A stretch of 44,011 nt of DNA from contig JACWAL010000022.1 of NCBI GenBank assembly GCA_014874295.1, forward strand, positions 1 to 44,011, written 5' to 3'. Shown one piece after another: positions 3,828 through 44,011 of the stretch (the stretch's first letter is position 1; each line of letters begins with the position of its first letter). A model generated the notes under the pieces. The model was not told the origin of the DNA. It saw only the letters and a list, made by a program, of their open reading frames with translations, and ran no database searches. Origin of the DNA: Microcaldota archaeon (GTDB taxonomy: Archaea; Micrarchaeota; Micrarchaeia; Micrarchaeales; Micrarchaeaceae). The translations under genes and the position numbers were made by a program.

Positions 3828-4724
3828 TCAATGGTAGTAGCCAGAGGTCCAGGAGCCATTATACGCTATGGCTGTAGGCACGCCGTTGTTGTTATTGCCG
3901 CTGTAATCTTTGGTGTCGCCGTTGAGGGGCCACCACCCAATCAGGTGCTGCAGGTAGATCGGCGCGCCGCTGATGCCCTCATTGTAGAGATACTGGATCT
4001 GGTTCGCAGTCAATGACGTGTTGTAAATCTGGACGTTGGAGATCGAGCCGTTGAAGTTATGTGTTAGGTCACTTGTAATTCCGATATATAAGTTTGCGGG
4101 CGTGCTGTTCAAAGCAGTACAAGGATTTGGATTCGTTGCCCACGCCTGACCATTTACATAGCCTATAAGGCCAAGAGGCCCACACGTCATAACAACATGT
4201 TCCCATGTCTTCTCTGGGACATATGAAGCCGATTGCGCCCTTTCGAAACTAGAACCTGATTGTCCTGCGGAGACCACCAAGCTGAAGGAGCTTTCTAAGT
4301 CCATTGTAGAATGCCATGCGTAGCCTACGCTGCCAAGCATATTCTGGTATGCATTGTTATTATTGTTGTTTCCCGTGATGCCTATTGTGTTAAGCCATAA
4401 TGATACGCTTATTTGGTCTGGGGAGACCCAATTTGATATAGTTATGTAGCTGCTCTGCCCGTTGAACTGCGCGACGTACTGTGGGAGGTAACCAGCGCAG
4501 CTGCCTGTCAATGCGACGTTCCATGAAGTGCTTGGGCCGTTAGGCCTGAAGACGTGGCAGGCACCAGGCCCTATCTTCGGCATGTATGCGGACATGTTGA
4601 AGACTCCGAGAGAATAGAGCGCTCCAAGCACGACCGCGATTATTAGGATTGCCCAACCATAGGTCATGAGATATTCCATCGCGGACTGCGACCGCACAGG
4701 ATAGCGGCAGGGTAAGCGTCTCAT
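3828..4724 (-). CDS. Pilin-like LamG-domain surface protein, copy 1
   Basis: The 298-residue product begins with a short basic leader (MRRLPCRYPVRS), then QSAMEYLMTYGWAIL and a hydrophobic helix. This resembles archaeal class III (type IV pilin-like) signal peptides, cleaved before Q by a prepilin peptidase. Next comes an invariant stretch with two Cys (GPGACHVF, TGSCAGYL). Residues about 90-260 form a concanavalin/LamG-like beta-sandwich (VSLWLNT, EHVVMTC, NLYIGITSD, FNGSISNVQIYNTSLTANQ). The tail GWWPLNGDTKDYSGNNNNGV is also found in copy 2. It is rich in Asn, Gly and Ser with several N-glycosylation sequons, as expected of an extracellular protein. Two related copies lie at 23.4 kb and 43.8 kb. 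The ligand is unknown; carbohydrate or protein adhesion would fit LamG domains. Confidence 0.8.
   Translation of the reverse strand: MRRLPCRYPVRSQSAMEYLMTYGWAILIIAVVLGALYSLGVFNMSAYMPKIGPGACHVFRPNGPSTSWNVALTGSCAGYLPQYVAQFNGQSSYITISNWVSPDQISVSLWLNTIGITGNNNNNNAYQNMLGSVGYAWHSTMDLESSFSLVVSAGQSGSSFERAQSASYVPEKTWEHVVMTCGPLGLIGYVNGQAWATNPNPCTALNSTPANLYIGITSDLTHNFNGSISNVQIYNTSLTANQIQYLYNEGISGAPIYLQHLIGWWPLNGDTKDYSGNNNNGVPTAIAYNGSWTSGYYH
4567..4604 (-). repeat. 38-nt identical block in LamG copy 1
   Basis: This stretch encodes VFNMSAYMPKIG and is identical base for base in all three LamG/pilin-like genes. The flanking codons differ at many synonymous positions. Confidence 0.85.
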
Positions 4725-4783
4725 TGAATGCCTTGACTACTAATGATGGCAAACAATAAAATGGTATTTGTCCCTTTGACACA

Positions 4784-5878
4784 TCAACCCTTGCCGGAGT
4801 GCCGCAGCGCGCGTGCCCTTAGCGTTATCATGTACTCCACGTGCTGTGCCAGCAGCACACCCTTCAGTCTTTCTCCCTTGACCACGACGAGGATGCCGAC
4901 ATTCTCCGAGCTCATGAGCGACACCGCGTCGTATAGGGACTTGCCGTACTGTATGGTGCGCACCGGTATCGAGATGTCCCTTACGGTTGAGTATTTATGT
5001 TTCTCGAATTCCTGCTGTGTCGGTATCCTGTTCACTGCGCGGAACTGCCTTCCATCCCTTGCGATTATGATATGGGTATGCGCCTTCAGCAATTTCTTAT
5101 ACAGGTGTTCTATCCGCGTGTTCGCGTCGACCACCATATAATTCCTGCTCAGAGCGACCCTGAGCGGTACGCCTTCCGCGTAATGCTTCACGTACGTGTT
5201 CTGCAGCTCCGCCTTCGCACCGTCGTAAAGGAACATGGCGATTATGAGGTCCCAGAAGACGATGAGTTCCCTGCTGGCGAAATTGTAGTTCGGCACGAGC
5301 GCCGCGTAGAGTATGGTCCCGATTATGAACACCGCGAGGAAAACGTTGCTCGCCTTTACGGCTTTCCTGGTGGCCTCGACAAGGCTGTTGCGCCGCTGCA
5401 GATAGCTGCGCAGCATGCGACCGCCATCGAGCGGGAACCCGGGTAGTATGTTGAAGACGCCAAGCAGGACGTTGATCTCGAACAGGAACTGCGTGATCTG
5501 CCTAAGCAGCCCAGGCTGTATGAGTACCGCGATTATCCCGAAAGCTATGCCGAGCACGATGCTTGAGAGCGGGCCCACGGCCGCAATCCTGAACTCCGTA
5601 TCCGGATCCACACGCTTTGTCTCGTCCATCACGGACGCACCGCCGAGGGGCAGCAATATTATCTTCTTTATCACGACGTTGTTCCGCTTTGCCGTGATGG
5701 AGTGGAAGAGCTCGTGCACGAAGACGCAGACGAACAGTAGCACTATCAGTATGAAAAGATAGAGAAGGTTGAACACTGCCGCGAACAGCAGGGTCAGCAG
5801 CATAAGGACGACGAACGTCCAGTGCAGTTGAACCTTTATGCCGAGCACGCTGCCTATGTATGGAGATAGGTCTGCCAT
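4784..5878 (-). CDS. Site-2-protease-like M50 metalloprotease with CBS domains
   Basis: A polytopic membrane zinc protease of the S2P/M50 family, which cuts substrates within the membrane. The 364-residue protein has the zinc motif HELFH at residues 55-59 inside a transmembrane helix. The third ligand motif FPLDGGR follows near Asp151. A further membrane segment lies near residues 175-215. The C-terminal part, about residues 225-355, reads as a pair of CBS motifs (VDANTRIEHLYKKLL, YGKSLYDAVSLMSSENVGILVVV), which usually bind adenosine nucleotides and could regulate the protease. This layout is common among archaeal S2P proteins. The substrate is not evident from the neighbours. Confidence 0.9.
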   Translation of the reverse strand: MADLSPYIGSVLGIKVQLHWTFVVLMLLTLLFAAVFNLLYLFILIVLLFVCVFVHELFHSITAKRNNVVIKKIILLPLGGASVMDETKRVDPDTEFRIAAVGPLSSIVLGIAFGIIAVLIQPGLLRQITQFLFEINVLLGVFNILPGFPLDGGRMLRSYLQRRNSLVEATRKAVKASNVFLAVFIIGTILYAALVPNYNFASRELIVFWDLIIAMFLYDGAKAELQNTYVKHYAEGVPLRVALSRNYMVVDANTRIEHLYKKLLKAHTHIIIARDGRQFRAVNRIPTQQEFEKHKYSTVRDISIPVRTIQYGKSLYDAVSLMSSENVGILVVVKGERLKGVLLAQHVEYMITLRARALRHSGKG

Positions 5879-5939
5879 TCCAATCCAACTTTATTTATTG
5901 GCGAGCATTTATAAGTAATGAGGCATTCTTGGCGTTTAT

Positions 5940-6782
5940 ATGGAGCTCAGGTTCGTCTATGACAGGCCGGCAGCTGTTATAGGCACTGGGAAGGACGGGC
6001 TGCTCGTCGCCGGAGACATCCACATAGGGATAGAGAGGAAGCTTGTCAGGGAGGGCATAAGACTGTACAGCGCCACCGAACACACCGCCAATGCCTTGAG
6101 GGAGATCGCGGACGAGTTCCGCGTCAGGAGGATCGTGCTGCTCGGCGACATAAAGGACGCGATAATGCGCCCAGACACATCCGAAAGGAACGCCCTGCAA
6201 AAGTTCTTCTACGACCTGAGAGACTATGAGCTGGTGTTGGTGCGCGGCAACCATGATGCTTACCTGGAGGATATCGTGAGGCGCGAACTCGTAGATGAGT
6301 TGCTGTTCGACAGGTTCGCATTGGTGCACGGCAACAGATGGCCGAGCGAAGAGGCCATGCAGAAGGGTTACCTAATCACGGCGCATAACCACCTTGCCGT
6401 GTCGTTCACGGACAAAATCGGCATCTATAAGGAGAAAGCATGGGCGATGGGCGGCATCAGTACCCGCGCAGCATCGAAAAGATACAAGGTATTCAACAAA
6501 AACATCAAGATCGTGATAATGCCGGCATTCAACGATCTGATCCTGGGCCTGGAGGCGCGCAACGTGAGGGATCCCAACACCAGCCCTCTCCTGAAGAACA
6601 GGCTATTCAGCTATAGGAACTGTAGTTTCTACACGCTGCGTGGGGAGCTGATAGGTAGTGGCAGCCGAATGGCACGGCACAAAAGTGTCACTCCTTCCCG
6701 AGTATCGTTATCGGTATCACGTTCTTCGCGAACTCCAGCTCGGCGAGCTTTATCGGGTCGACCGTTCCCTCCGGTACCTTGA
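5940..6782 (+). CDS. SbcD-related archaeal metallophosphoesterase
   Basis: A calcineurin-like phosphoesterase with the five metal motifs in order: GDIHIG (Asp26, His28), GD at 69-70, GNHD at 103-106, His130 in VHGNRW, and AHNH at 148-151. The family (SbcD-related, about 225-240 residues in archaea) is thought to act on nucleic acids or phosphoesters; the substrate is uncertain. Homology-like sequence ends near residue 238 (LRGELIG). The frame then runs on for about 40 Arg/Ser-rich residues that are antisense to the 3' part of rpoK. This tail could be a real extension or the result of a small frame change, because stops lie just there in another frame. Start ATG 5940 precedes a normal first strand. 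Confidence 0.85.
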   Translation: MELRFVYDRPAAVIGTGKDGLLVAGDIHIGIERKLVREGIRLYSATEHTANALREIADEFRVRRIVLLGDIKDAIMRPDTSERNALQKFFYDLRDYELVLVRGNHDAYLEDIVRRELVDELLFDRFALVHGNRWPSEEAMQKGYLITAHNHLAVSFTDKIGIYKEKAWAMGGISTRAASKRYKVFNKNIKIVIMPAFNDLILGLEARNVRDPNTSPLLKNRLFSYRNCSFYTLRGELIGSGSRMARHKSVTPSRVSLSVSRSSRTPARRALSGRPFPPVP

Positions 6783-6876
6783 TGAGCGGCGGGGCCCCGT
6801 AAGCGAGCTCCAGTGCCCTAGCGCCGATGACTCTCGCCTTCTCATATTTCGTGTATTCCATGGAAATCAGCGTCAT
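6688..6876 (-). CDS. rpoK: DNA-directed RNA polymerase subunit K (Rpo6)
   Basis: The 62-residue product contains YTKYEKARVIGARALELAYG and ends with AELEFAKNVIPITILGKE, the conserved core of archaeal RpoK/eukaryotic Rpb6. This subunit helps assemble and stabilise RNA polymerase. ATG 6876 overlaps the TGA of the upstream geranylgeranyl reductase gene by four bases (ATGA), which favours translational coupling. A second in-frame ATG at 6861 gives a 57-residue product beginning directly at MEYTKYEKA and is also possible. Its 3' end lies antisense under the tail of the phosphoesterase gene. Confidence 0.9.
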   Translation of the reverse strand: MTLISMEYTKYEKARVIGARALELAYGAPPLIKVPEGTVDPIKLAELEFAKNVIPITILGKE

Positions 6877-8318
6877 ACCGGATTCGGCTGGAAGCGCTCC
6901 TTCGCCTCCTCTATCTCCTTCGCGACCTTCGCCCTCCACTGCTGGAACGATGACGGATCCTTCGGGTACTGTTCGTAGAGTGCGTTGAGCGCCTTCATCT
7001 TCTTCACCACATAGAGCAGGTTCACGAAGGCGTTGATGTTGCTAGCGCCCTTGAGTATCATCTTGAACTTAGACGCGATGCTCAGCTCTGGAACCAGACC
7101 GTAACTCAGGTCTTCGGCCTCCTTCGCCGTGAGGAATGTCTTCATGCCGTAGTTGATCACGTCGTTGTTGAGCGACTGCAGGTATATCCTGAAAACCTCA
7201 AGACCGGCGGTCTTCTTCCCGTACGCCTCGTTGAACGCGAGGTTGTAGTGCCACAGTCCCTTGACGGACACATCATTGCCGCGCACCGCCTTAACCGCCG
7301 CCTCTCCCGAAAGTATGCCCGCGACGAGCGCCGGACCTATGCCTCCAGCGCTTATCGGGTTGGGCATCGCCATACTGTCCCCGGCTCCCATATAACCGTT
7401 GTACACGAGGCTCTCCATCTGCCTGCGGACGGCGACAGACCAGTAACCCTTGCCATTCTTGTCGGTCTCGTCTATCTTTATGTTCTTGATCACAGGGTTG
7501 AACTTGATGTAGTTGTCGATGAGCGTATGCAGGGTGTCGTTCTTGTTGAGCTTCTTGTTGCGTATCTCGAGGCTCCTCTTCTGCACCCCGAGCCCTATGT
7601 TGACGCGATTGCCCTCTTTTGGGAAGACCCATCCGTAACCTCCGGGGGCAAGTTCCTGGTTAAGATGTATTAGCGCGTTGTCAGGATCGTAGAAGAGCTC
7701 GTCGTTGTGGTCGAGCTCGAAGCTGCAGATGTACCTTCCCGTAGACTCGACGTCGTCTATACTGACCTGCCTGTCGACATATGGGTTGTCGGGAAGCTTC
7801 CTCCTTAGGTTCGTGGCGATGCCGAGCGCGTCGATTGTGACCTTTGCCCTCACGTGCACCTGGTTGTGGTCCTTGTCCCTGCCGAACACTCCATTGACAT
7901 AGCCATCCTCTATTATTGGGCCCTCGACCTCGAACTCGTGGACGCATTCCGCGCCTTCCTTCACGGCCTTGGCGAGCAGCTTGCGCTCGAACGCGGGCCT
8001 GTTCAGCACGTAACCCTCGCCCTCGAAAAGGAACTTTGACTTCATATCAGGTGATAGAGCATAGACGCCCTTGACCTTCTTCTCCAGCTCGGGATATGCG
8101 AACTCGAGGCCGGAATGCTCCTTTATGAAGTCGAGGTGGTTCTTCGCGACCGCGTCTCCGCATACCCATCCCCAGTTGGTCTTCTTGCCCGCCTCTTCGG
8201 GCCTGTTCCTGTCCAGCAGGAGAACGTTTAGGCCCTGCTTCGCCGCCATCGTGGCAGCGAGCGATCCGGACATGCCCGCTCCTGCTACAATCAGATCATA
8301 TTCCTTGCTGTCTTGCAT
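6873..8318 (-). CDS. Geranylgeranyl reductase family flavoprotein
   Basis: An FAD-dependent reductase that, in archaea, saturates the double bonds of geranylgeranyl chains in membrane ether lipids. The 481-residue protein opens with a Rossmann FAD motif (VAGAGMSGSLAA, residues 11-21). It has the family's cysteine motif NWGWVCGDA and the conserved GGYGWVFPKEGNRVNIGLGV block. A second FAD contact GAGDSMAMPNPISAGGI follows near residue 315. I use ATG 8318 (MQDSKEYDLIV); a GTG three codons upstream would also be in frame. The C-terminal helical part after residue 370 is typical of the archaeal members. It probably forms an operon with rpoK. Confidence 0.9.
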   Translation of the reverse strand: MQDSKEYDLIVAGAGMSGSLAATMAAKQGLNVLLLDRNRPEEAGKKTNWGWVCGDAVAKNHLDFIKEHSGLEFAYPELEKKVKGVYALSPDMKSKFLFEGEGYVLNRPAFERKLLAKAVKEGAECVHEFEVEGPIIEDGYVNGVFGRDKDHNQVHVRAKVTIDALGIATNLRRKLPDNPYVDRQVSIDDVESTGRYICSFELDHNDELFYDPDNALIHLNQELAPGGYGWVFPKEGNRVNIGLGVQKRSLEIRNKKLNKNDTLHTLIDNYIKFNPVIKNIKIDETDKNGKGYWSVAVRRQMESLVYNGYMGAGDSMAMPNPISAGGIGPALVAGILSGEAAVKAVRGNDVSVKGLWHYNLAFNEAYGKKTAGLEVFRIYLQSLNNDVINYGMKTFLTAKEAEDLSYGLVPELSIASKFKMILKGASNINAFVNLLYVVKKMKALNALYEQYPKDPSSFQQWRAKVAKEIEEAKERFQPNPV

Positions 8319-8394
8319 GAAAAGCACTCAATGATCAGCTAGCTGATGCACTTGAGGTATTGGAGCGGCAAGTATTTATTATCTGCGGTCGCCG

Positions 8395-9198
8395 TCAGGA
8401 AAGCCTGCGCAGCTGCCGCTTCAGCCTGCTCCACGAAATCTTCGCCTCCCCCACGCGCCTCATCTCCTCTACGGTCTCGGGGCCACCGCGCTCTATCCTT
8501 GCCAGCATCCTGCCCGCGACCGCTTCAACCGTCTCCTCTGTGGAGTTGTGCGCCAGCACGTCGAGCGCGTCAAGCGTAAACCTCACGGACTGGTACGGCA
8601 GCGCCGCGTAGACGTCCCCAGCAAAGCTCATGACCACAGGCGCACTCGAAGGGCCTATCTCGCGTATCGCATCCGTTGTCTTTGCTACCGCCATTGCCCT
8701 GTCGAAGCCAGGAGCGAATGAATACGGGAAGGCTATCAGGTTGCGGAAAACATCAGGCCAGTGGCCCTGCGGCATCCATAGCAACATGTCAGACACCTTT
8801 ATAACCGGACCGCTGCGCTCCGTCTCCTGTGCGATGGCCGCCATTGCCGTCGGTACACCCCAGAAGGAGTCTTCCTTTGTCGCGGCGTCTATCACCGCCG
8901 CGACCTTCATAACGGCCTCGCGGCAGCTTGCCCCAATCGTGTCCTCGATATAGTACGCGACCGCGCCCAGGCTGTTTGCTACCTCGTGCGGCCTCTCCAT
9001 CTCTATAGTTCCCCACTTGTCGCTACCCTTCTGGACAGCCTGGCTCGATGCCTTCTCAATGACGAAAGGCGTCATGCCAATATGGCCAAGCGCGCCGGCG
9101 TACCTGCCGTCCATCGCATACAGCTTCGCCCTGCTGATCCTGTCCTCGAACGTGGTGCGGTGCATCTCGTAGTCCGCACTGTGGTTACGCATTACCAT
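8395..9198 (-). CDS. Unrecognised 267-residue protein
   Basis: I do not recognise this protein. It has no signal peptide and only moderately hydrophobic stretches, so it is probably cytosolic and mainly alpha-helical. Residues 1-60 contain an acidic/basic start and MDGRYAGALGHIGMTPFVIEKA. The middle has EVANSLGAVAYYIEDTIGASCREAVMKVAAVIDAA and GPVIKVSDMLLWMPQGHWPDVF. The end is rich in Arg (WSRLKRQLRRLS). No catalytic motif is obvious. A TATA-like GTAAATAT lies about 29 bases before ATG 9198, consistent with its own leaderless transcript. Start could also be ATG 9192. Codon use looks like the neighbours, and the frame is free of competing real genes. Confidence 0.7.
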   Translation of the reverse strand: MVMRNHSADYEMHRTTFEDRISRAKLYAMDGRYAGALGHIGMTPFVIEKASSQAVQKGSDKWGTIEMERPHEVANSLGAVAYYIEDTIGASCREAVMKVAAVIDAATKEDSFWGVPTAMAAIAQETERSGPVIKVSDMLLWMPQGHWPDVFRNLIAFPYSFAPGFDRAMAVAKTTDAIREIGPSSAPVVMSFAGDVYAALPYQSVRFTLDALDVLAHNSTEETVEAVAGRMLARIERGGPETVEEMRRVGEAKISWSRLKRQLRRLS

Positions 9199-9283
9199 GG
9201 TTATGCCCGCTAGACACTTTTAGACTCAGATATTTACGCGTTTTCATTGGGCGTACAGGCTAGCCATGCGCTGCCGCACGCCG

Positions 9284-10027
9284 TCAGAGGTGCGTCAGTA
9301 TCGTGAGCAGGCCGAGCAGTATCGCCCCGATGGCTACGATTGCCTTCCCGTACTTTTTGACCGCGAACCGCTTGGTCAGCGTCGGCCCTATCAGGCCGCC
9401 TATCACAGCGCCGACAATCATATACAGTATCAAGGTGTAATCGGCTATCGTGCTCGACATGAGGTAGAGCGTGAACGCGAACGCGTCTATCGCAAACACC
9501 GCGAAGAGAGACACGCCTATCGCGTCCTTCTCCTTCTCGCCCGAGGCGATAAGGCCAGTGGTTGCGACCGGACCGTACCCTCCGCCCGATATTGCCTTGT
9601 TGAAGCCGCTGAGCGCGCTCAGCGCCCCGACCTTCTTCCACGAGAATGTGACCTTGCGCTGCAGGAGCATGAAGATCCCCATCGCTATGACCAGCAGGCC
9701 TATGTACATGTTAAGGTAGAACGACGGCAGGTGCAGCGCGACGAACACCGCGAGGGCGCTGCCGATGATACCCAACCCGACCATCATCGCCGCGACCTTG
9801 GCGTTCCTCTTGTCGAGCAGCCTGAAATTCTTCAGCTTCTGATGCCTCACCACACCTGTCAATCCAGTGCACAGCTGCGATACCAGTATCGTAGGGACGG
9901 CCATCAGCGATGATACGCCCAACAGGAGCAAAAGCGGTGTGCCAAGAGTCCCATAGCCCATGCCTATGGCCGTGTCCATCACTCCGAGGAGGAAGCCGAT
10001 CATGGACCCTTCGATTCCCAAAGCCAT
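9284..10027 (-). CDS. TauE/SafE family membrane permease
   Basis: A 247-residue protein with about seven or eight transmembrane helices in two related halves. The pattern GxGYGTLGTPLLLL near the N-terminus and GGGYGPVATTGLIASG in the middle is typical of the TauE/SafE (former DUF81) family. Members export or import sulfite, sulfoacetate and other small sulfur-containing or organic anions; the substrate here cannot be read from the sequence. Its start lies just downstream of a 22-bp palindrome that overlaps the expected promoter, so it may be controlled by a dedicated regulator. Confidence 0.85.
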   Translation of the reverse strand: MALGIEGSMIGFLLGVMDTAIGMGYGTLGTPLLLLLGVSSLMAVPTILVSQLCTGLTGVVRHQKLKNFRLLDKRNAKVAAMMVGLGIIGSALAVFVALHLPSFYLNMYIGLLVIAMGIFMLLQRKVTFSWKKVGALSALSGFNKAISGGGYGPVATTGLIASGEKEKDAIGVSLFAVFAIDAFAFTLYLMSSTIADYTLILYMIVGAVIGGLIGPTLTKRFAVKKYGKAIVAIGAILLGLLTILTHL

Positions 10028-10038
10028 TGCATCATCTA

Positions 10039-10081
10039 ATGTATTTTAATTAAAATACATTGTATAATATTATGTACAATT
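10039..10081 (-). promoter_or_regulatory. Palindromic operator/promoter of the TauE-type permease
   Basis: Positions 10039-10060 are a perfect 22-bp palindrome with half-site ATGTATTTTAA. It is centred about 22 bases upstream of the permease ATG and contains the A/T-rich element expected as TATA box. A second, imperfect inverted repeat with TTGTA...TACAA arms follows at 10060-10079. A dimeric regulator bound here would block promoter access. The regulator itself is not identified. Confidence 0.5.
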
Positions 10082-10159
10082 AAGAATAAAAAGGTTTCTG
10101 TCCGAGAGACATTGGCCGCGCACCACTGCAAAGGCTATGCTATCTCTCGCAAAAACCTG

Positions 10160-10261: not shown

Positions 10262-10262
10262 A

Positions 10263-10997: not shown

Positions 10998-11025
10998 GGA
11001 ATCTGTACTACTATCCCGCTATAGG

Positions 11026-11038: not shown

Positions 11039-11060
11039 GTGCGGATAAGTTATAGGTCGC

Positions 11061-21819: not shown

Positions 21820-23256
21820 TTAACCGGTTGCTTCCTCGATTGCTGCGAGGTCGAAAAGCATCACATCCTCTTTTTTGGCGCGCTCCTTCATGCCTTCGGT
21901 GAAACCTGCCTTGCTGAACAACACATAGCTTATCTTTTTGAGCTTCCCATGCCATTGCATTGTTTCTACTTTCCTCCTTAAATTGTCATAGATATCAATG
22001 CCGGCCTGTCTATTAGTCCATTTGCAATCGGCAAACAGCGCAGCCTTTGTTTCATAGTTCAGTGCAACTATATCTATTTCCTCTTCGTCAAGCGCCTGCC
22101 CCTTGTTCGGGTTCCTGCCCCACCACTTTCCTATTCTTGTGAATCTCGGTAATTTGCCCTCTTGTGACAATTTGTTGATTACATACCTAGAGATATCTTC
22201 GAACCTGTAAGGAACTATGGCTTCGGCGCTGCTTTTAGCAGCTTCTCTCAAACCATCATAATTTCCAAGTTCGAGTTGATCTGCGTTCTTATGAGCGAAG
22301 TTAAACCAGAACGCCAAGTAGTTGCTATTTAACACATACCTGCCTCTCTTCTGCGGTCGGTCCGCCTTTATATCTATAGGTTTTTCATACCTTACCATAT
22401 TCAGCACATCCATAAGCGCATATAGGTATGGCTGCACAGACGTCTGCTTTATATCGAGTAGGCTGCTTATCTCGCCCCTTGTGTGCCTGCCGGATGCAAT
22501 CGCATAAAGTATCGAAAAGTATGTTGGAGAGGCCCTACCAAACTCCTCCATCAGGAAGTCTCTAGGTTGCGTGAGGAGCGTGCTATTTTCTTTTACAAGC
22601 ACATTATCGATAAACCCTTCCATTGTGTTTATTCTATTGTCCCTCATCATGCCGTAGAACTGCGGTAGACCTCCGAAAACAGAGTAAAGCTTTATTTTTT
22701 CTTTCATGCCGCCTCTAGTTATCTTGGTTACGGCACCAAAGTCAAATTCCTTCAGATGTAGGCTTGCGGTTGCCCTGCCGAAGAGGGGGTTCCCACGGTC
22801 AAAGAACAGTCTCTTCATCATGCCTATGGATGAACCTGATACAAGTATGGAGATTTTTGTACTCTTTAATCGTGTATCTACATACTTCTGTATGTTTGCA
22901 ATTAATTGAGGGCTCACCTTCGAAAAACGCTGGAATTCATCGAAATATAATATCAACCTTCTTGATGTACCGAGGTTGAAAATGCCTTCAAGAAACGAGT
23001 CCCACGAAGCTGGATAAAAGGCGGCCGTTGCCTCTTGCTTCCTTATTGCCGATGAAAACTCGTTTAGTAGTTCCATGCTGCTTTTTTCCGAGTTAACGTA
23101 CAAGTAAACGCCACCAAGGCTATCGATCAACCTGCCTATGAGCGCAGTCTTGCCAATCCTCCTTCCCCCGTAGAGCACAATGAATGACCCTTCTTTCTTC
23201 AATTCGCCTGCGAGATACGTTAGCTCCTTCTCACGGTCTAGGAACGTGCCTGCCAT
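21820..23256 (-). CDS. Archaeal ATPase (AAA, ATPase_2 type) with DUF234 nuclease-like C-terminus
   Basis: A 478-residue protein of the archaeal STAND-like ATPase family common in accessory regions. Walker A is GGRRIGKTA (residues 30-38), Walker B LILYFDEFQRF near residue 120, and sensor-like ILVSGSSIGMM follows. A winged-helix region lies near residues 260-320 (SGRHTRGEISSLLDIKQTSVQPYL). The C-terminal DUF234 part contains EEEIDIVAL and ALFADCKW, which fits the PD-(D/E)xK nuclease-like core of this family. Function is unknown; links to mobile elements or defence have been suggested for the family. I chose ATG 23256 (MAGTFLDREKEL); the upstream codons are A/T-rich promoter sequence. The gene is noticeably more A/T-rich than its neighbours, consistent with transfer. 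Confidence 0.85.
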   Translation of the reverse strand: MAGTFLDREKELTYLAGELKKEGSFIVLYGGRRIGKTALIGRLIDSLGGVYLYVNSEKSSMELLNEFSSAIRKQEATAAFYPASWDSFLEGIFNLGTSRRLILYFDEFQRFSKVSPQLIANIQKYVDTRLKSTKISILVSGSSIGMMKRLFFDRGNPLFGRATASLHLKEFDFGAVTKITRGGMKEKIKLYSVFGGLPQFYGMMRDNRINTMEGFIDNVLVKENSTLLTQPRDFLMEEFGRASPTYFSILYAIASGRHTRGEISSLLDIKQTSVQPYLYALMDVLNMVRYEKPIDIKADRPQKRGRYVLNSNYLAFWFNFAHKNADQLELGNYDGLREAAKSSAEAIVPYRFEDISRYVINKLSQEGKLPRFTRIGKWWGRNPNKGQALDEEEIDIVALNYETKAALFADCKWTNRQAGIDIYDNLRRKVETMQWHGKLKKISYVLFSKAGFTEGMKERAKKEDVMLFDLAAIEEATG

Positions 23257-23422
23257 GATTATTTTTATAATGATTATATTTATAATCCTTTGTCCGATTT
23301 GTTGGCAAGTCCTCTTTGGAATGGCAGTGCGCACTCAGTGCACGCTATTTGAAATTGAGCTGAACTGCAACATGCAATATGGGAATCTATTTATGTTTTT
23401 TTTGATTAGTATCAGCGGGATC
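23257..23422. promoter_or_regulatory. Divergent promoter region, ATPase gene and LamG copy 2
   Basis: Next to the ATPase start is a run of ATTATTTTTATAATGATTAT followed by ATTTATAAT, overlapping A/T-rich dyads that hold the minus-strand TATA box. Toward the LamG gene, CTATTTATG at about 23389-23397 is the best plus-strand TATA candidate, about 30 bases before ATG 23423. A 10-bp palindrome AGTGCGCACT lies at 23336-23345. Nothing in the gap looks coding. Confidence 0.4.
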
Positions 23423-24346
23423 ATGAAGATAACACACACACACAAGATAAGCATCATCAGCAGCAACTTTAGGAACCAGTCCGCGATGGAGTACCTGATG
23501 ACCTATGGGTGGGCGATCCTCATCATCGCGGTGGTCCTGGGCGCGCTCTATTCCTTAGGTGTCTTCAACATGTCCGCATACATGCCGAAGATAGGGCCTG
23601 GAGTCTGCCACGTCTTCAGGCCGAACGGCCCCGGCACTTCGTGGAACGTGGCGCTCACAGGAAGCTGTGCTGGTTACCTTCCACAATACGTCGCGCAGTT
23701 CGCAAATACACTAGGCAGTGGAAACGTACAAATATCAATCAAAAGTCCTTCGGCTCTACAAAACAATAACGGGCCTTTCACAATAAGCGTGTGGTTAGAC
23801 TCAAACCTGTGGCTATCTACTAGTGTACAACAAATTGTAATGTACAATGAACAACCTTCAATCAGCGGTTTCAGATTTGGTACTGTGGGTCCAGCAGGGG
23901 ATATTGGCTTCTGGACAACCCAGAGCGGCGGTACATTGAGCTTAATTATATCAAGTAACTTTTTGAACTCGCACACGTGGTATCATGTGGTGGTTGTCTA
24001 CCAAAACCAGGCAGGTACGCTCTACGTGAATGGCGTAAATGTGGTAAGCGGCACCGGAAATTACATTGGTAACACGCAGAATTTGATTATCGGGCCGCAG
24101 GGTGGGTCATATTCTATAAACGGCTCCGTCGCCAACGTCCAGGTCTACGACGCCTCGCTGACGGCCAATCAGGTGCAATATCTCTATCAAGAAGGTATCG
24201 GCGGCGCGCCCATCTACCTGCAGCACTTAGTTGGGTGGTGGCCCCTCAACGGCGACACCAATGATTACTCTGGAAATAATAACAATGGAGTTCCCACCAA
24301 TATAGCTTTTAACGGTTCATGGACTAGCGGGTATACAATTCCATGA
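23423..24346 (+). CDS. Pilin-like LamG-domain surface protein, copy 2
   Basis: The 307-residue product has a leader MKITHTHKISIISSNFRN, then QSAMEYLMTYGWAIL and the membrane helix shared with copies 1 and 3. The next ~45 residues (through TGSCAGYLPQYVAQF) are nearly identical to copy 1. The centre (residues about 85-230) is a LamG-like beta-sandwich (FTISVWLDSNLW, TWYHVVVVYQNQAGTLYVNGV, SINGSVANVQVYDASLTANQ) but shows little identity to copy 1 in loops. The tail GWWPLNGDTNDYSGNNNNGV is again shared. I start at ATG 23423, since upstream codons overlap the divergent ATPase gene. Prediction: exported and held at the cell surface after prepilin-peptidase processing; binding partner unknown. Confidence 0.8.
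   Translation: MKITHTHKISIISSNFRNQSAMEYLMTYGWAILIIAVVLGALYSLGVFNMSAYMPKIGPGVCHVFRPNGPGTSWNVALTGSCAGYLPQYVAQFANTLGSGNVQISIKSPSALQNNNGPFTISVWLDSNLWLSTSVQQIVMYNEQPSISGFRFGTVGPAGDIGFWTTQSGGTLSLIISSNFLNSHTWYHVVVVYQNQAGTLYVNGVNVVSGTGNYIGNTQNLIIGPQGGSYSINGSVANVQVYDASLTANQVQYLYQEGIGGAPIYLQHLVGWWPLNGDTNDYSGNNNNGVPTNIAFNGSWTSGYTIP
23561..23598 (+). repeat. 38-nt identical block in LamG copy 2
   Basis: Same bases as 4567-4604 (minus strand) and 43889-43926, encoding VFNMSAYMPKIG. Confidence 0.85.
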
Positions 24347-36753: not shown

Positions 36754-36757
36754 ATGG

Positions 36758-37327: not shown

Positions 37328-37333
37328 GCGGGC

Positions 37334-37756: not shown

Positions 37757-37840
37757 GTTACCACGTTACTGCTACCTTATCACCAAGAAACTATATAAAA
37801 GTGTGGGGCTTGGCGTACTAGAACCAAAAAGCTGTTATCG

Positions 37841-37873
37841 AAAGTGTTATATATCATCAGAGCGTAACACTTT
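37841..37873. repeat. Inverted repeat beside the IS66 remnant
   Basis: AAAGTGTTA (37841-37849) and TAACACTTT (37865-37873) form a perfect 9-bp inverted repeat with a 15-base spacer, just beyond the 3' end of the IS66 fragment. It may be a terminator hairpin or a leftover element end. Confidence 0.5.
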
Positions 37874-37880
37874 AAAATTC

Positions 37881-38180
37881 TCACGGTTTCGAGGAGGCCC
37901 CAGACATCAGAATGTTCGACAGGTTTTCGACATAATCCTGTCCTTGCAGTTTCGATGACATGTAAAGGGACATCTGCATCGCATAGCTGCCCATGCTGTC
38001 CTCTCCTCTGGTTTGCTGACTTACCCTCCTTTTTATCACGACGGGTCTCATTGCCCTCTCCGCCCTGTTGCTGGTCGGTTCGACGTCCTTGTACTCGAGG
38101 AACGTGAACCATTCGTTGTTGAACCGCATTATGTAGTCGTTGAGCCTCGAGGCAATCCGAAGTTGTTCAACTAGGTTCAC
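37881..38180 (-). pseudogene. IS66-family transposase remnant (C-terminal part)
   Basis: Only about 99 codons are left. They read FTFLEYKDVEPTSNRAERAMRPVVIKRRVS, the C-terminal signature of IS66 transposases (the '..ePTNNrAEralRp.vi.Rk' block with the last catalytic Glu of the DDE site). A stop lies in frame two codons before the first possible start (GTG 38180), and intact IS66 TnpC proteins are about five times longer. So this is a decayed copy. No companion tnpA/tnpB genes are present. Confidence 0.8.
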
Positions 38181-38272
38181 AGCTCAATACATTTATGTGG
38201 CGACCTTGATAGGTGCGGAGGCTCACCCTTTAATAATTATAGAGTCCTTATCCTTCCAGATAGAGTGATTGT

Positions 38273-38506
38273 TTGCGAGGAAAGGAAACGATAGTCATAT
38301 GCGAACAGTGCGGCAGGAAGGTCCCCAGGAACAAGGCCGTGAGCTTCCAGAAGTCCGTGAGCTTCAACACGGAGCTGAAGAACGCCAATGACGTCAGGTT
38401 TTTCGAGCGCATGAAGATCTATTACTGCATTAGCTGTGCCAAGCACAGGGGCATATTCGAGAGGAAGAAGAGGATGGCGGAATCGCGCTCCAGGAGATGG
38501 GCCTGA
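38273..38506 (+). CDS. rps26e: Ribosomal protein S26e (eS26)
   Basis: A 77-residue zinc-binding protein: VICEQCGRKVPRNKAVSF, then YYCISCAKHRGIFERKKR. The CxxC...CxxC arrangement with GRxVPxDKA- and YYCxSCAxH-type motifs is that of archaeal S26e. The usual N-terminal basic part (about 20 residues) is missing. TTG 38273 seems to be the start, because a stop lies four codons upstream and no ATG or GTG precedes the zinc motif. A TATA-like TTTAATAATTATAG is at 38230-38243. It overlaps the next gene by 10 bases. Confidence 0.75.
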   Translation: MRGKETIVICEQCGRKVPRNKAVSFQKSVSFNTELKNANDVRFFERMKIYYCISCAKHRGIFERKKRMAESRSRRWA

Positions 38507-39462
38507 TGGATCCGAATGACCTGCTGATATTCAAGGAAAGGAAGACGACTGTTTCTAAAGAGGGTGCGGAAGCTCAGAAAGCGCAGGAAGAGCCCGCACA
38601 GAAGGCTCAGGCCAAGGCGAAGAGCGATGCGTTGGAGGAGCTCAGGACCAAGATAGCTAGGCACGAGGAGGCGGCGAGGAAGGAAAAGGAGGAGAAGGCG
38701 GCCAGAAAGGCTGCAGCCAAGGAGACAGCCCACAAGGAGACGAAAGAGAGGGGGGAGACAAGAAGGGTGGAACCCACATTCGAGCCGAAGCCACCAAAAC
38801 AGAGGAAGGAGACGAAGTCAGAGGTCATGGCTAGGGAGAGCGCTGTGGGGCTCAGCTGCGTCTGGCATCCATGGAGGCCCTCCTATGCGATTTGCAACTA
38901 CTGCCATAGGGCCTTCTGCTTCGAGGACATAGTGACGGAGAGGGGCAACTATTACTGTCTTGAGGACATGGACACAGCGATACGCGCCAAGATAGAGGCA
39001 GCATCGAGCAAGTCGTCTAACGCCGGCATCATATCCGGCGGCGCGTTCCTCATACCGGTGCTCATATTCATCTACACGTACAACACCGTGCTGGCGAACG
39101 CCGTATCGTACGTCGTATCCATCGGCTTTATCCCGTTCATCTACAATCCAATATACCAGTATGCCTTCCCGATAATGGGGGCCGCCGCCACAATGCTGAG
39201 CTTCATATTGGGATTATGGCTGTTCCTGGGCAACAGGAATGTCTTCCCCGGCCTTGCGGTAGGATCGCTCACATCCGCCATGTTCCTGTATAATTACCTC
39301 CAGTCCAACAACATATATGACCTGGTGATAGGGCTAACATCGCTGGCCGCGCTCATGCTGTTCGCCTATTCGAGGTCCGTCTACGTGCCTCTCGCGGAGG
39401 AGGTAGTGGTACCAATGGAGGAGGAGATAGCTCCACAGTGGACGAACGCCGGCAGGTTCTGA
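38497..39462 (+). CDS. Zinc-finger (B-box-like) multi-pass membrane protein
   Basis: The 321-residue protein has three parts. Residues 1-115 are a highly charged Lys/Glu/Ala coiled coil (EEPAQKAQAKAKSDALEELR and so on). Residues about 118-160 form a small zinc module, CVWHPWRPSYAICNYCHRAF, then CFEDIVTERGNYYCLEDM. The C/H spacing (C..H...C..C...C..D...C) resembles a B-box zinc finger. Residues about 170-300 hold four or five transmembrane helices. A short acidic tail follows. Such B-box plus membrane proteins are known in archaea without clear function. Overlap with the S26e gene suggests joint expression. Confidence 0.75.
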   Translation: MGLMDPNDLLIFKERKTTVSKEGAEAQKAQEEPAQKAQAKAKSDALEELRTKIARHEEAARKEKEEKAARKAAAKETAHKETKERGETRRVEPTFEPKPPKQRKETKSEVMARESAVGLSCVWHPWRPSYAICNYCHRAFCFEDIVTERGNYYCLEDMDTAIRAKIEAASSKSSNAGIISGGAFLIPVLIFIYTYNTVLANAVSYVVSIGFIPFIYNPIYQYAFPIMGAAATMLSFILGLWLFLGNRNVFPGLAVGSLTSAMFLYNYLQSNNIYDLVIGLTSLAALMLFAYSRSVYVPLAEEVVVPMEEEIAPQWTNAGRF

Positions 39463-39547
39463 CTGATTTTGCGGGGAGAGTTTCTTTACCTCCAATTAGG
39501 GATTGCACTGCATTTTATGCTGCTCGCCGGCTTCGGTGATAAGCCGA

Positions 39548-40465
39548 TTACTTTGTTCTCTCTGGTTCGACGGCCGTGTACTGCAGGAGAAGCTGCTCTG
39601 ATAGATACTGGGCAAAGATTTTCATCCTGCCCTTATCGGCCTCCTCGATGGCAAGGTAGTACCTTTCTTTGTTCTTTACTTCTATAACGACCGGTGGAAA
39701 CAGGTTCCTCATTAGTATCCAGTTCATTATCAACCTGCTCGTCCTTCCATTGCCGTCAGTGAACGGATGGATTTGAGCGATCCTGCAGTGTACCAGGGAT
39801 GCAATCTCAACAGGGTGCATGGCGCGCCTCTGCTTCGAATAGGAGCGAAACAGCCTGTCAAGCATGAGGGGCACATCCGTGTGCAGTGGCGGCTTCCATT
39901 CAGAGCCCATTATCCTGATCGGTCCGTCTCTGTATGCGCCTTGTATCCTGCAGGAGGTGCCCTTCGTTATCAGGTAATGCACTTTCAGAAGGAACGCCTT
40001 GTTAAAGGCGCCCTTATACGACTTCACGAATTTCCATGCATCTTCAGAGTTCAGGGCCTCAATCACGTCATCGGATCTGGCTCCTTCGGGTGCGATCCTG
40101 TCGGCGAGCACAAGGGCTGTCTGCCTCAATGTGAGCTTGTTGCCCTCTATTGCATTGGTATTGTATGTGAAGCGCACAAGGAAATCTTTTGGCAAAACAT
40201 CGTCCGGCGTTTTTTTGAAGACGACAGCCGCAGACCTCAAATCCTCGAGCCTCTCTATCATGGCATCTGACAGCCAGCCTGCTCGATGCTCTTTCGCCGC
40301 CTCTTTTTCCAGCCTGACAAGAGCCTTTTGGATCTGGGTCTTAGATGGCAGTTCCCTCCCAAGAAGTATCCTGAATTTCTTGGTCTTGCCGCCCTTCGTG
40401 CGTATGCTCTTCGCTAGGTAATAGTAGGTGTGACCACCGTGAAGCTGCCTTTCGATGAACGCCAT
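39548..40465 (-). CDS. Fic-domain protein (AMPylator-like)
   Basis: The 305-residue protein has the complete Fic active site HPFTDGNGRTSR (residues 233-244, catalytic His233) and the upstream inhibitory helix motif TNAIEG (residues 103-108; Glu107 expected to block ATP). It is thus an N-terminally auto-inhibited class II Fic protein. Fic enzymes attach AMP or other phosphate groups to target hydroxyls. The first 60 residues (YYYLAKSIRTKGGKTKKFRILLG) form a small basic strand region also seen in archaeal Fic proteins. No antitoxin gene is adjacent. It has its own promoter with a palindromic operator. Confidence 0.92.
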   Translation of the reverse strand: MAFIERQLHGGHTYYYLAKSIRTKGGKTKKFRILLGRELPSKTQIQKALVRLEKEAAKEHRAGWLSDAMIERLEDLRSAAVVFKKTPDDVLPKDFLVRFTYNTNAIEGNKLTLRQTALVLADRIAPEGARSDDVIEALNSEDAWKFVKSYKGAFNKAFLLKVHYLITKGTSCRIQGAYRDGPIRIMGSEWKPPLHTDVPLMLDRLFRSYSKQRRAMHPVEIASLVHCRIAQIHPFTDGNGRTSRLIMNWILMRNLFPPVVIEVKNKERYYLAIEEADKGRMKIFAQYLSEQLLLQYTAVEPERTK

Positions 40466-40470
40466 ATATT

Positions 40471-40550
40471 ATGACTACATTATAAAGCTATTTAAATATT
40501 GTGGTCATAATGACCACAAATATAGATATATATTTAAAAGTGGTCATAAA
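40471..40550 (-). promoter_or_regulatory. Fic promoter with GTGGTCA/TGACCAC operator
   Basis: GTGGTCATAATGACCAC at 40501-40517 is a perfect palindrome (7-bp arms, 3-bp spacer). Further half-sites lie at 40540-40547 (GTGGTCAT) and 40471-40478 (ATGACTAC, one change). TATA-like TTTAAATA (40491-40498) lies between, about 28 bases before the Fic start. Four half-sites around a TATA box point to a repressor, perhaps autoregulation by a partner not present here. Confidence 0.55.
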
Positions 40551-40557
40551 TATTAGA

Positions 40558-40642
40558 TGCAGGGGGAGAGATTTGAACTCTCGCATCCCTAGGGAACAAG
40601 GTCCTAAGCCTTGCGCGTTTGACCAGGCTCCGCCACCCCTGC
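40558..40642 (-). tRNA. tRNA-Leu (anticodon TAG)
   Basis: On the minus strand, acceptor arms GCAGGGG/CCCCTGC pair over 7 bp. The anticodon stem CAAGG/CCTTG encloses CTTAGGA, anticodon TAG. A class II variable arm and T arm GAGAG-TTCAAAT-CTCTC follow. Discriminator A; no CCA encoded. At 85 nt it is a normal length and serves as a comparison for the enlarged tRNA-Leu(TAA). Confidence 0.95.
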
Positions 40643-40708
40643 ATTTCCGCTATTGAATTCCGCGGTAAGGTTTATTACACTTCTCGGCAAGATATCTGAG
40701 GCGATTCA

Positions 40709-41818
40709 GTGGCAGTCAAGAAGCAGGGCAACGAGACAGCGGCGAAAATCGAAGGATTCGGCTCCGGCATAGTTGATTCCATTTACAAGGGGAAGAACCC
40801 GAGTTTTGAGGCACTCACGAGGTCGAGATCCAACATAAAGTTCGACGACAAGGAATCGATACTGAAGCTAGGGGATTCAAAGGAGGAACGCAGCTTCATA
40901 AACATAGCACAATCGAAGAAGTTCATGCAGACCGTAGCTGTGGCATCGAAGTGCAATGCCTTCCTGAAGGAGAACCTGCACACGTCGATAAGGGGACTTT
41001 ATTATCAGTTGAAGTTCTCTCTCGGTGAGGACGTCGACGAGAATCTCTTTGAAGAACAGAGCGAATCCAACCCGCTCATAGAAGACCTTGAGGTCGCGCT
41101 GGGCGTGAAAAGGGAGGACCTGAACCTTAGCGCGGACAGGAAGGGCTTCCTCGCAGGCAACATGCGCATAATAGACAGGTTCGGCGACGAGCGCCAGGAG
41201 ATAGACGCGACCAAGCAGGGAAGGGGCGGATGGCCCATACCGAGCGATGTCGACAACGACATCGAGTTCGTCGACGTGAAGGCAAAATATGTCCTAGTGG
41301 TGGAAAAGGATGCCATATGGCAGAGGCTTAACGAGGACCAGTTCTGGAGGAAGGAGAACTGCATACTCATAACACCCAAGGGCCAGGCCTCGAGGGGGAC
41401 GCGCAGGCTGATAAGGAAGCTGTCTGACACGGGGCTGCCCGTCTATGTCTTCAACGACTGCGACGCGTGGGGGTGGTACATTTACTGGACGATAAAGACA
41501 GGTAGCATGAACCTCGCCTACATAAGCAACGAGATCGCGACTCCGAAGGCGAAATTCCTAGGAGTCACTATGTCTGACATAGAGCGCTACGACTTCCTGA
41601 AGAAGTTGACAATGAAGGCGAACGAGATGGATCTAAAGCGCGCGCAGGAGATGCTTTCTTACCCTTGGATAAGCAGACACAAGGAATGGGCAGCCGAGCT
41701 CAAGAAGGTGATACAGACCAAGACCAAGCTTGAGCAGGACTCTCTGCAAGGGCCGAGGCTGACGTTCATAGGCGACTACATTCGTGATAAGGTGCGGGCG
41801 CAGGAGTTCCTGCCGTAA
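40709..41818 (+). CDS. top6A: DNA topoisomerase VI subunit A
   Basis: The 369-residue subunit makes the double-strand break through a tyrosine. TSIRGLYYQLKFS contains the catalytic Tyr (one of Tyr98/Tyr99). The TOPRIM metal site follows with VVEKDA and YVFNDCDAWGWYIYWTI. In most relatives the latter is DxDPxG; here Pro is Ala. The usual ending around SYPWISRH and KVIQTKTKLEQDSL is present. The partner subunit B gene is not in this window, although it is often adjacent. GTG 40709 is the start giving MAVKKQGNE. Confidence 0.92.
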   Translation: MAVKKQGNETAAKIEGFGSGIVDSIYKGKNPSFEALTRSRSNIKFDDKESILKLGDSKEERSFINIAQSKKFMQTVAVASKCNAFLKENLHTSIRGLYYQLKFSLGEDVDENLFEEQSESNPLIEDLEVALGVKREDLNLSADRKGFLAGNMRIIDRFGDERQEIDATKQGRGGWPIPSDVDNDIEFVDVKAKYVLVVEKDAIWQRLNEDQFWRKENCILITPKGQASRGTRRLIRKLSDTGLPVYVFNDCDAWGWYIYWTIKTGSMNLAYISNEIATPKAKFLGVTMSDIERYDFLKKLTMKANEMDLKRAQEMLSYPWISRHKEWAAELKKVIQTKTKLEQDSLQGPRLTFIGDYIRDKVRAQEFLP

Positions 41819-41823
41819 AGGGC

Positions 41824-42278
41824 TTATTCCTGAGTCACTAACTTTTCAATGAATGCGTTGTTGAATTTAGTGCTCAACAGTTTTGCGGCGGTTGCTACAG
41901 GCGCCCAATTGTATTTTACATGCTCATTCGAGAGCCTAAATTTTCCTTCCTTTAGTTTGCAGTTGAATGTGACCAGTACCAGAGGTATCTTTTTGCCAGG
42001 CTGTACTTTGAGTTTAGACACAGATGCATCAAATAGCCCGCCGATTTTCAGTGCATATTTAGGGACACCGAGCTCTTCAGATACTTCCCTGCTTAATGTC
42101 ATCTTTATATCCGTCTCACCAATCCTGATTTTACCACCTGGTAAATCCCAGAATGGGTTATTCTTTTGGTGGATTTCAGCACAGCTGGCCCAGATTTCAG
42201 GATAAGGATCTCGTTATTGCTGTTTTTGATTAACGCTTTTATGCCGACAAAGAATCTGGCGTCCGTCTCACGCATCAT
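41824..42278 (-). pseudogene. Nudix hydrolase gene with a frameshift
   Basis: From ATG 42278 the frame reads MMRETDARFFVGIKALIKNS and NEILILKSGPAV, the typical first strands of a Nudix enzyme, and then runs out of similarity. One frame over, the sequence continues as EIHQKNNPFWDLPGGKIRIG and ETDIKMTLSREVSEELGV, a Nudix box, and goes on to a normal C-terminus ending at TAA 41824. The switch lies near 42165-42180. The box has one residue more than the textbook GX5EX7REUXEEXGU. A single inserted or deleted base would restore a protein of about 150 residues that hydrolyses nucleoside diphosphate derivatives. Starts two bases after the secretion ATPase gene. Confidence 0.75.
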
Positions 42279-42279
42279 A

Positions 42280-43596
42280 TTATACCCTTATCGCAGGCGA
42301 CAGGCTGGTCAGCCCCAGTTTCTTGAGGGTCTGTTCTGGGCTGTCATAGTAGTCCTTGACCATGTTGTTTATACTTACTATGTCCCTCATGCCCTGCTTG
42401 TTCATCGCGTAGAGTATATTCGCGCGCACGTCTTCCTCGGCAAGCAGTGCCGGAGGGGGCACACCGAGCAGCCCGCATATCGTGTCCCTGTAGGTAACGC
42501 TTGATAGTATCGGAGCAGCCTTGTGGGTCTTGTAGTCAAACCTGTACAGGTCCGACAGGAGTATCTGCGTTTCTATCCCAGATATCTCCGATATCTGGGT
42601 TATTTTCCTGACTGGCTTCCCGTTCTCGTATATCTGCGAGAGCGAGATTAGCCCGTCAACCACGGGTATGATGTCCTTTGGCACGTTCATCGGGGAGTGC
42701 TGCAGCCTGTTGACTATGTCCCTTGCCGAAGAGGCGTGGATTGTGCCGATGCATATCTTGCCGATGTTCATGGCAGTTATCATGTCGTTCGCCTCCTCGC
42801 CCCTTACCTCACCTATGATGATCATGTCGGGTCTCATCCTGAGGGCATTTTTCACGAGCTCCTCCATAGGCATATCCGTGCTCGTCTCGAGGCGTGCGCA
42901 GTTCTCCTGCGTGGAAGTATCAAGCTCGTATGTCTCCTCTATTGTAACTATGCGCGCCTCAGGCCTGAAGAATGAGAACATCGCGTTGAGAAGCGTTGTC
43001 TTTCCGGCAGCAGGCATACCGCCTATTAGCAGGTTGGCGGGCCTTGTCTTGAACCCGTCCATGTAGATCCATAGCCTCGCGGCTATCTGGTAGTCGAGTT
43101 CGCCGTAGTTTATCAGGTCGATAATACTCATCGCCTTCTGCTTGAACCTCCTTATCGTTATGTTGTATCCCATAGGAGAGGTAACTATGTTAGCCCTGCT
43201 GCCGTCGGGCATGTGAACGTCGAGTATGTTGTTGCCCGCTATTTCGTTGGTGGCGAAGAGCTTCAGCTTCCCGACCAGCAGGTCGAGGTCGCGCCTGCTC
43301 TTGACCTTTTCCTCCAGCTTCTTCTCGCCCAGCTGGGAGTCGTAGACGAATATATTCTCCGTGTTGTTGACCATTATGTCCTCTACGGTGTCCATGCCAA
43401 GGGCGCGCGATAGAGGGTCGAGGTTGAATACATCGGGAACGAGCGCGGCCATCTCCTCATCGGTTATGTTGGGCTTCAGCTTCCTTGCCGTTGACTCTAT
43501 CAGCTCCTGGCGCTCGTCCTCAAGCGACACGGAGACGAACTTCCCCTTCAATTCCTTCAGGACCTGCGTCTCGATGTCATAAAGCTTTCCATCCAT
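42280..43596 (-). CDS. Type II/IV secretion or archaeal pilus assembly ATPase
   Basis: A 438-residue ATPase of the GspE/PilB/FlaI group. Walker A is GGMPAAGKTT (residues 192-201), the Asp/Glu box TIEETYELD follows, Walker B is MIIIGEVRGEEA and the His box GTIHASSARDIVNRL. The N-terminal domain (residues 1-150) carries VEDIMVNNTENIFVYD, typical of archaeal type IV pilus/archaellum ATPases. No membrane platform gene (TadC/FlaJ type) is in view. The next gene upstream is the third pilin-like LamG protein, so this ATPase is a candidate for assembling those proteins. Confidence 0.88.
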   Translation of the reverse strand: MDGKLYDIETQVLKELKGKFVSVSLEDERQELIESTARKLKPNITDEEMAALVPDVFNLDPLSRALGMDTVEDIMVNNTENIFVYDSQLGEKKLEEKVKSRRDLDLLVGKLKLFATNEIAGNNILDVHMPDGSRANIVTSPMGYNITIRRFKQKAMSIIDLINYGELDYQIAARLWIYMDGFKTRPANLLIGGMPAAGKTTLLNAMFSFFRPEARIVTIEETYELDTSTQENCARLETSTDMPMEELVKNALRMRPDMIIIGEVRGEEANDMITAMNIGKICIGTIHASSARDIVNRLQHSPMNVPKDIIPVVDGLISLSQIYENGKPVRKITQISEISGIETQILLSDLYRFDYKTHKAAPILSSVTYRDTICGLLGVPPPALLAEEDVRANILYAMNKQGMRDIVSINNMVKDYYDSPEQTLKKLGLTSLSPAIRV

Positions 43597-43756
43597 CCAA
43601 ACATCCTCAATGCTAATCGCATGTCAAGGCTAAAAACCTTAGCTGCCTTCCACAACCCCACACATAGACATTATGCCAATGTCACAGAGGAACCGGCACC
43701 AGACTAAACGAACCACAAAGCTTTTATGCGTTGACTAGGAATGTGTACTGAGTCGC

Positions 43757-44011
43757 ATGGCAATCGCACATTCCACGGAAAGGGCACCACAAAAGATCCA
43801 CTTGCAGTCCGCCATGGAATACCTAATGACATATGGCTGGGCAATCCTTATCATAGCAGTTGTATTGGGGGCTCTTTATTCTCTCGGAGTCTTCAACATG
43901 TCCGCATACATGCCGAAGATAGGGCCGGGTTCCTGCCATGTCTTCCGACCTAATGGACCAGGAACATCGTGGAACGTGGCACTCACAGGCAGCTGCAACA
44001 ACGCATTGCCG
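43757..44011 (+). CDS. Pilin-like LamG-family surface protein, copy 3, 5' part
   Basis: The 85 codons in view read a leader MAIAHSTERAPQKIHL, then QSAMEYLMTYGWAIL, the membrane helix and GPGSCHVFRPNGPGTSWNVALTGSC, matching copies 1 and 2. After that Cys it diverges (NNALP) and leaves the window, so its LamG domain is not seen. TATA-like GCTTTTATG lies at about 43720-43728, some 30 bases upstream. The leader lacks the basic residue directly before Gln that copies 1 and 2 have close by (RSQ, RNQ; here HLQ). Confidence 0.8.
   Translation, partial: MAIAHSTERAPQKIHLQSAMEYLMTYGWAILIIAVVLGALYSLGVFNMSAYMPKIGPGSCHVFRPNGPGTSWNVALTGSCNNALP
43889..43926 (+). repeat. 38-nt identical block in LamG copy 3
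   Basis: Same bases as in the other two copies, encoding VFNMSAYMPKIG; identity with copy 1 extends several bases further upstream (through TATTCTCTCGGA). Confidence 0.85.

Follow-up and report, generated by a model that had tools for sequence, protein, structure and literature searches.

Pilin-like LamG proteins of Micrarchaeota with constant ends and centres probably exchanged by recombination

The LamG proteins encoded in the window, i.e., the whole stretch of 44,011 nucleotides analysed here, probably belong to a modular family of pilin-like lectins whose variable centres are swapped through recombination of the constant ends. As judged by comparing genomes, centres have been replaced between intact flanks, the ends cluster by genome, and the silent sites of the ends are mosaic. 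The source genome (G000) is a MAG of 823,640 bp (0.82 Mb) in 42 contigs and belongs to the Micrarchaeota, so the DPANN archaeon surmised from the letters alone was the right guess. The window is the entire contig C19 of this genome and holds the following features:

3828..4724, minus strand: LamG copy 1, complete, 298 aa (leader, pilin-like helix, cysteine-pair subdomain, LamG centre, constant tail)
4464..4688, minus strand: copy 1, 5' constant part (QSAMEY...PQYVAQF, 75 aa)
4056..4463, minus strand: copy 1, variable LamG centre
3831..4055, minus strand: copy 1, 3' constant part (FNGSISNVQIYN...GWWPLNGDTKDYSGNNNNG...YYH)
392..3739, minus strand: SMC gene, downstream flank of copy 1
4784..5878, minus strand: Peptidase_M50 gene, upstream flank of copy 1
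23423..24346, plus strand: LamG copy 2, complete, 307 aa from the ATG at 23423
23477..23701, plus strand: copy 2, 5' constant part
23702..24115, plus strand: copy 2, variable LamG centre
24116..24346, plus strand: copy 2, 3' constant part
42280..43596, minus strand: type II/IV secretion ATPase (T2SSE, TadA/PilB-like), divergent from copy 3
43757..44011, plus strand: LamG copy 3, 5' part only, cut at the contig end

The three loci with the same N-terminal module that the initial annotation had described are present, the third running off the contig end. Copy 3 is truncated by the end of C19 and resumes at G000:C6:1-744; the end of C19 and the start of C6 are identical at 141/141 positions, and once joined the copy encodes an intact 270-aa mature protein. 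The common tail proposed for the two complete copies is likewise real, reading GWWPLNGDTKDYSGNNNNG and GWWPLNGDTNDYSGNNNNG. The RNA fold of the region upstream of copy 1 is unremarkable (z -1.8).

Each protein is predicted to have a short, positively charged leader, a hydrophobic helix starting QSAMEYLMTYGWAIL, a small and constant cysteine-pair subdomain and a LamG (ConA-like) head, to which a constant tail folds back. The centres of the complete window copies match Laminin_G_3 (PF13385) at 64.4 and 71.8 bits versus a cut-off of 27.6 (Pfam E-values 1.7e-17 and 8.8e-20), and the same domain was matched in 72/72 relatives tested. An AlphaFold2 model built on 72 relatives (pLDDT 85.4, pTM 0.81) shows a helix at 15-39 followed by a short stretch that is constant and holds two invariant cysteines, then a jelly roll and lastly a tail that packs well, and its closest PDB match is a SAP-like pentraxin (Foldseek, E 2e-10). 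The window copies are predicted to carry this Laminin_G_3 / ConA-like jelly-roll fold. The model of the TafC family fimbrial protein (NF052521) matches the LamG part alone, at 40.8 and 32.0 bits versus a cut-off of 410, and membership in that family was rejected because the match is weak, far below the curated cut-off and confined to LamG. Larger multi-LamG proteins of 585 and 776 aa are found at G000:C33:1-5530 (L083) and G000:C37 (L105), and one larger multi-LamG protein has a canonical AQIALEF prepilin motif; C33 and C37 may be a single type IV pilus locus split across contigs, C37 also having T2SSF domains. In the multidomain C33 protein a GWWPL..DYSGNGNNG motif stands before the LamG head, which prompts a possible circular-permutation reading of the tail, and in the L117 LamG protein the tail segment IQALYQEGIGGAPIDLQHLVGWWPLNGNAN occurs twice in tandem, an arrangement that unequal recombination in the tail would be expected to produce.

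The pilin-like signals proposed from the sequence are for the most part borne out. The leader has K/R at position -2 in 146/177 proteins, Q at +1 (by definition of the set) and E at +5 are invariant in the alignment, and a hydrophobic helix follows. Position -1, in turn, is A/S/G in 98/177 proteins and Leu in 65/177, unlike canonical class III signals, which makes leader processing uncertain, and the Pfam class III signal model has no match. Both the membrane helix and leader processing are given here as predicted. Regarding assembly machinery, a T2SSE ATPase lies in the window and T2SSF platform domains score above cut-off on C37, while for Peptidase_A24 (prepilin peptidase) there is only a weak, sub-threshold candidate (19.6 versus 26.5 bits) that bears GxGD and has no Pfam match in hmmscan.

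Three copies in the window had been taken to imply many in the genome, and many there are. A tblastn-type search with the 75-aa 5' constant part gave 34 matches across the genome of 823,640 bp, including 13 that are nearly full length at 93-100% identity, the 3' constant part gave 26, and about 18 copies of the close subfamily are counted after joining contig ends, with further, more distant copies also present. In most close copies a 225-bp 5' constant part precedes a Laminin_G_3 centre, with a 3' constant part after it, and most copies are intact ORFs; at least three are frameshifted (C11, C20 and C30), and one LamG copy is interrupted by an IS-like insertion (C42/C27) with a 9-bp target duplication, TAAATACGG. 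The ends of this IS-like element nearly match each other (CCCTGTAGAAATCC / GGATTTCTACAAGGCCC; G000:C42:13440-13558, L085, and G000:C27:1-150, L098), and an end of the same element lies upstream of the C11 copy (G000:C11 end, L088). The overlap between contig ends reaches 141 bp, which is the word of the assembler. No fewer than 15 contig ends of the source genome fall within the LamG family; the family breaks short-read assemblies, and MAGs therefore underestimate its size. Across the order of the source organism, the family is present in 142/148 genomes searched, per-genome counts being lower bounds (at most about 16 candidates scored per genome).

How the parts of these proteins relate within and between genomes was compared for 127 proteins from 30 genomes. 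Identity of the N parts is about 0.85-0.96 within most genomes versus about 0.70 between genomes, centres are about 0.2 identical within and between genomes alike, and the tail is intermediate. The AUC, i.e., the chance of a same-genome pair outscoring a different-genome pair, amounts to 0.96 for the N part and 0.91 for the tail versus 0.50 for the centre. The best match comes from the same genome for about 100/120 N parts, about 78/120 tails and 15/108 centres, the latter being 14% versus a random expectation of 7.6%. Finding a centre's best match elsewhere was dropped as proof, as the random expectation is also mostly elsewhere, and positionally matched loci were used instead because the best-match argument on centres is indecisive alone. 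Five centre pairs are 45-68% identical, and four of these five join different genomes, with N parts 64-72% identical across the pair versus 90-99% within those genomes. These data bear on the view that the family arose by lineage-specific duplication, with ends under purifying selection and centres evolving very fast with no exchange at all. Expansion after speciation could cluster the ends by genome, most paralogous centres are at background identity, and silent sites in the ends are strongly diverged, all of which would fit; yet centres that reach 68% identity although the N parts of the genomes in question share just 70% do not, and we consider duplication without exchange unlikely, also in light of the loci described below.

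All genomes compared are MAGs as far as records show; G011 is a single 952-kb contig and G034 its congener. In G011 and G034, a LamG gene is bordered by a helicase gene on one side and by a conserved block downstream, with flank and N part aligning at 65-95%; from about +240 bp onwards identity is at background level, and it recovers near +600-660 bp. The centre found in G011 at this helicase locus shares 84% identity with the LamG at the other locus of G034, and the G034 centre is 86% identical to a LamG in the G011 array at the other locus. The comparison shows that two centres traded loci, with breakpoints at the constant/variable junctions. Among neighbours within G011, genes 17471/18402 are the same in stem and centre and differ in their tails, and genes 16537/17471 have identical tails and 3' flanks with unrelated centres. 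In two other genomes, the two-gene locus L178/L211 has flanks that are 97% identical for 2.9 kb on the upstream side and 86% identical for 10.2 kb on the downstream side, with both centres unrelated (about 20%) and homology resuming at the 3' constant part. L153/L198 align at 88.6% over a stretch of 781 bp that takes in the N part, and then at 14% in the centre and at 82% in tail and flank. These matched-locus cases indicate that centres were exchanged and are not simply fast-evolving, and the reshuffling of centres that was to be sought by comparing related genomes is seen in the G011/G034 swap and the L178/L211 replacement. Very fast evolution of centres after duplication is hard to square with orthologous centres of 84-86% identity between congeners whose flank DNA is about 80% identical, with matching centres at exchanged loci, and with identical tails and 3' flanks around unrelated centres. 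The initial annotation had named beforehand the outcome that would speak against it, namely only three copies with centres conserved one-to-one; what we found is about 18 copies with centres exchanged. As a separate observation, L295 6314-15411 (G011:C1) has four LamG genes with an exact 1974-bp period and identical centres, and this array is a recent tandem amplification.

The constant ends themselves carry traces of exchange at silent sites. Using in-house implementations of recombination tests on the source genome, the PHI-type statistic is 0.28 for the 5' part versus 0.71 in shuffled order (p 0.0005, the floor) and 0.46 for the 3' part versus 0.77 shuffled (p 0.0005), and a run test detects an improbably long identical run in 16/91 pairs (p 0.0005). 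The mosaic signal is also found in the N part of the other genomes tested, weaker in some, and more weakly in about half of their tails. Such mosaic silent sites are a further point against duplication without exchange. Third-position divergence in the ends has a median of 0.38 in the source genome and about 0.5 elsewhere, and from so high a silent divergence it follows that conversion lags behind silent substitution; on this ground, a recent homogenisation was rejected as the whole story for the ends. The exchange would thus be fast enough to keep the protein ends alike though slow compared with silent change. Mosaics and swaps might in principle be artefacts of metagenome assembly, given a MAG in 42 contigs with many contig ends inside the LamG family. 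However, most mosaic blocks in uninterrupted copies are shorter than the 141-bp word, so they would not be chimeras of it, and the clearest swaps lie within the single-contig genome G011, making this explanation very improbable.

The surroundings of the window copies differ in congeners. In G001, the M50 gene adjoins the SMC gene without LamG in between, the last (promoter-proximal) stretch before SMC being conserved with the source genome, and Rpb3 has no LamG or ATPase neighbour; the upstream neighbour of TadA differs in G001 and G002, and relatives keep the T2SSE ATPase gene beside Topo VI-A. With these loci empty or rearranged in the congener, each of the three window loci is an insertion in this lineage or the site of a rearrangement. 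At the matching place in G001, there is no counterpart of the ATPase_2/DUF234 gene beside copy 2 (window 21820-23334), and a NUDIX-like ORF (window 41824-42102) between Topo VI-A and TadA is absent from G001 and G002, where these two genes nearly touch. Homology between copies covers the ORF and at most about 85 bp upstream and ends at the stop codon, with the C6/C20 pair as the exception, and no downstream similarity was found among 17 flanks compared. Shared flanking elements that would mobilise LamG genes were rejected on these grounds. In the exceptional pair, G000:C6:7548-7721 and G000:C20:19677-20085 both have an MCM 3' end upstream of the LamG 5' end, and MCM is otherwise single copy in the source genome; the flanks are 95% identical, the LamG starts differ, and the last 141 bp of C6 equal the C5 end, so that C6 and C20 may represent a single locus in the form of two population alleles, its 5' end having been converted.

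Window loci that are absent or rearranged in a congener, and homology limited to the ORF and at most about 85 bp upstream in all but one pair, are also what one would expect if whole LamG genes moved like transposons and their similar ends merely reflected recent transposition. Yet the surroundings of the genes showed no transposase, terminal repeats or target duplications, the breaks in identity fall within the gene, at the constant/variable junctions and not at its ends, and silent-site mosaics need intragenic exchange. We therefore regard transposition as an improbable source of the pattern, though some gene-level dispersal of LamG copies must have happened as well. Diversity-generating retroelements (DGRs) occur in DPANN archaea and invertible surface-protein genes are known, so variation might also be made by such an element or by site-specific inversion. 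The source genome has no reverse transcriptase (RVT_1) match, on which ground a DGR was rejected, the centres differ along their whole length including indels and not at adenine positions, and the copies are direct and dispersed, contrary to inversion; we see next to no likelihood in either mechanism.

In the recombination reading favoured here, stem and tail, both conserved, would serve as homology arms between dispersed, tandem or incoming copies, and recombination would replace the centre and patch the ends. DNA arriving from relatives could enter by the same route. As a result, ends would evolve in concert within a genome and centres would circulate as exchangeable cassettes. Ordinary RadA-type recombination would presumably suffice, and no dedicated recombinase or recombination signal was identified. 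Being deduced from genome comparison, such exchange does not imply fast clonal switching.

Both the expansion of LamG proteins in Micrarchaeota and lectin-bearing pilins have been published before. In Mia14, another member of this phylum, an expansion of LamG-like jellyroll genes was described; some of these were associated with loci for type IV pili, and the authors suggested that they take part in interaction with host cells (Golyshina et al. 2017, PMC5498576). Phylum and LamG fold are thus common to both, whereas the portion of that account drawn on here mentions no constant pilin-like ends, concerted ends or centre exchange (PMC5498576). The ConA/LamG proteins of Undinarchaeota (arCOG07813) are likewise LamG proteins of DPANN archaea and have been proposed as adhesins (PMC7414124). 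PilC of Streptococcus sanguinis, a modular type 4 pilin with demonstrated glycan binding, also joins a pilin-type N terminus to a ConA-like lectin head, but it is a bacterial minor pilin of one pil locus with an extra Ig-like module and not a large shuffled family (PMC9934059). By analogy with PilC and the Mia14 proposal, the LamG heads are probably adhesins, and we infer that they bind host-cell glycans or glycoproteins and that shuffling broadens or varies host recognition.

In Neisseria, one expressed gene is converted from silent copies. PilE/PilS resemble the LamG family in being pilin-type, with a constant N terminus and diversity via recombination between copies (PMC12871193). Unlike in PilE/PilS, most of the about 18 LamG copies are full ORFs at separate loci, and it is the complete lectin head that is exchanged. 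Inter-copy recombination with constant parts flanking a variable one is found in the LamG family as in pilE/pilS, and one expression locus with silent partial donors is not. To the extent covered by a limited search of open-access literature, we found no report of concerted ends with exchanged centres in archaea. Read from its sequences, the family is an apparent case of recombination-driven surface-adhesin diversity in an archaeal, many-locus and head-swapping form.

A broader reading, to which we give slightly less than even credence, is that of combinatorial adhesins: nearly all members of this order of host-dependent archaea would keep repertoires of pilin-anchored lectins whose heads are swapped as cassettes between loci and lineages by way of the conserved ends, tuning recognition of hosts or viruses on population time scales. 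If true, archaea would have their own counterpart to the pilin variation of bacteria or to VSG-like variation, with many loci intact at once. The LamG repertoire is a concrete candidate for the means by which DPANN archaea recognise their hosts and change them, with exact exchange boundaries, presence in nearly all genomes searched in the order and testable predictions. The swaps seen between genomes suggest that dependent archaea reshuffle the very proteins that they may use to hold their hosts.
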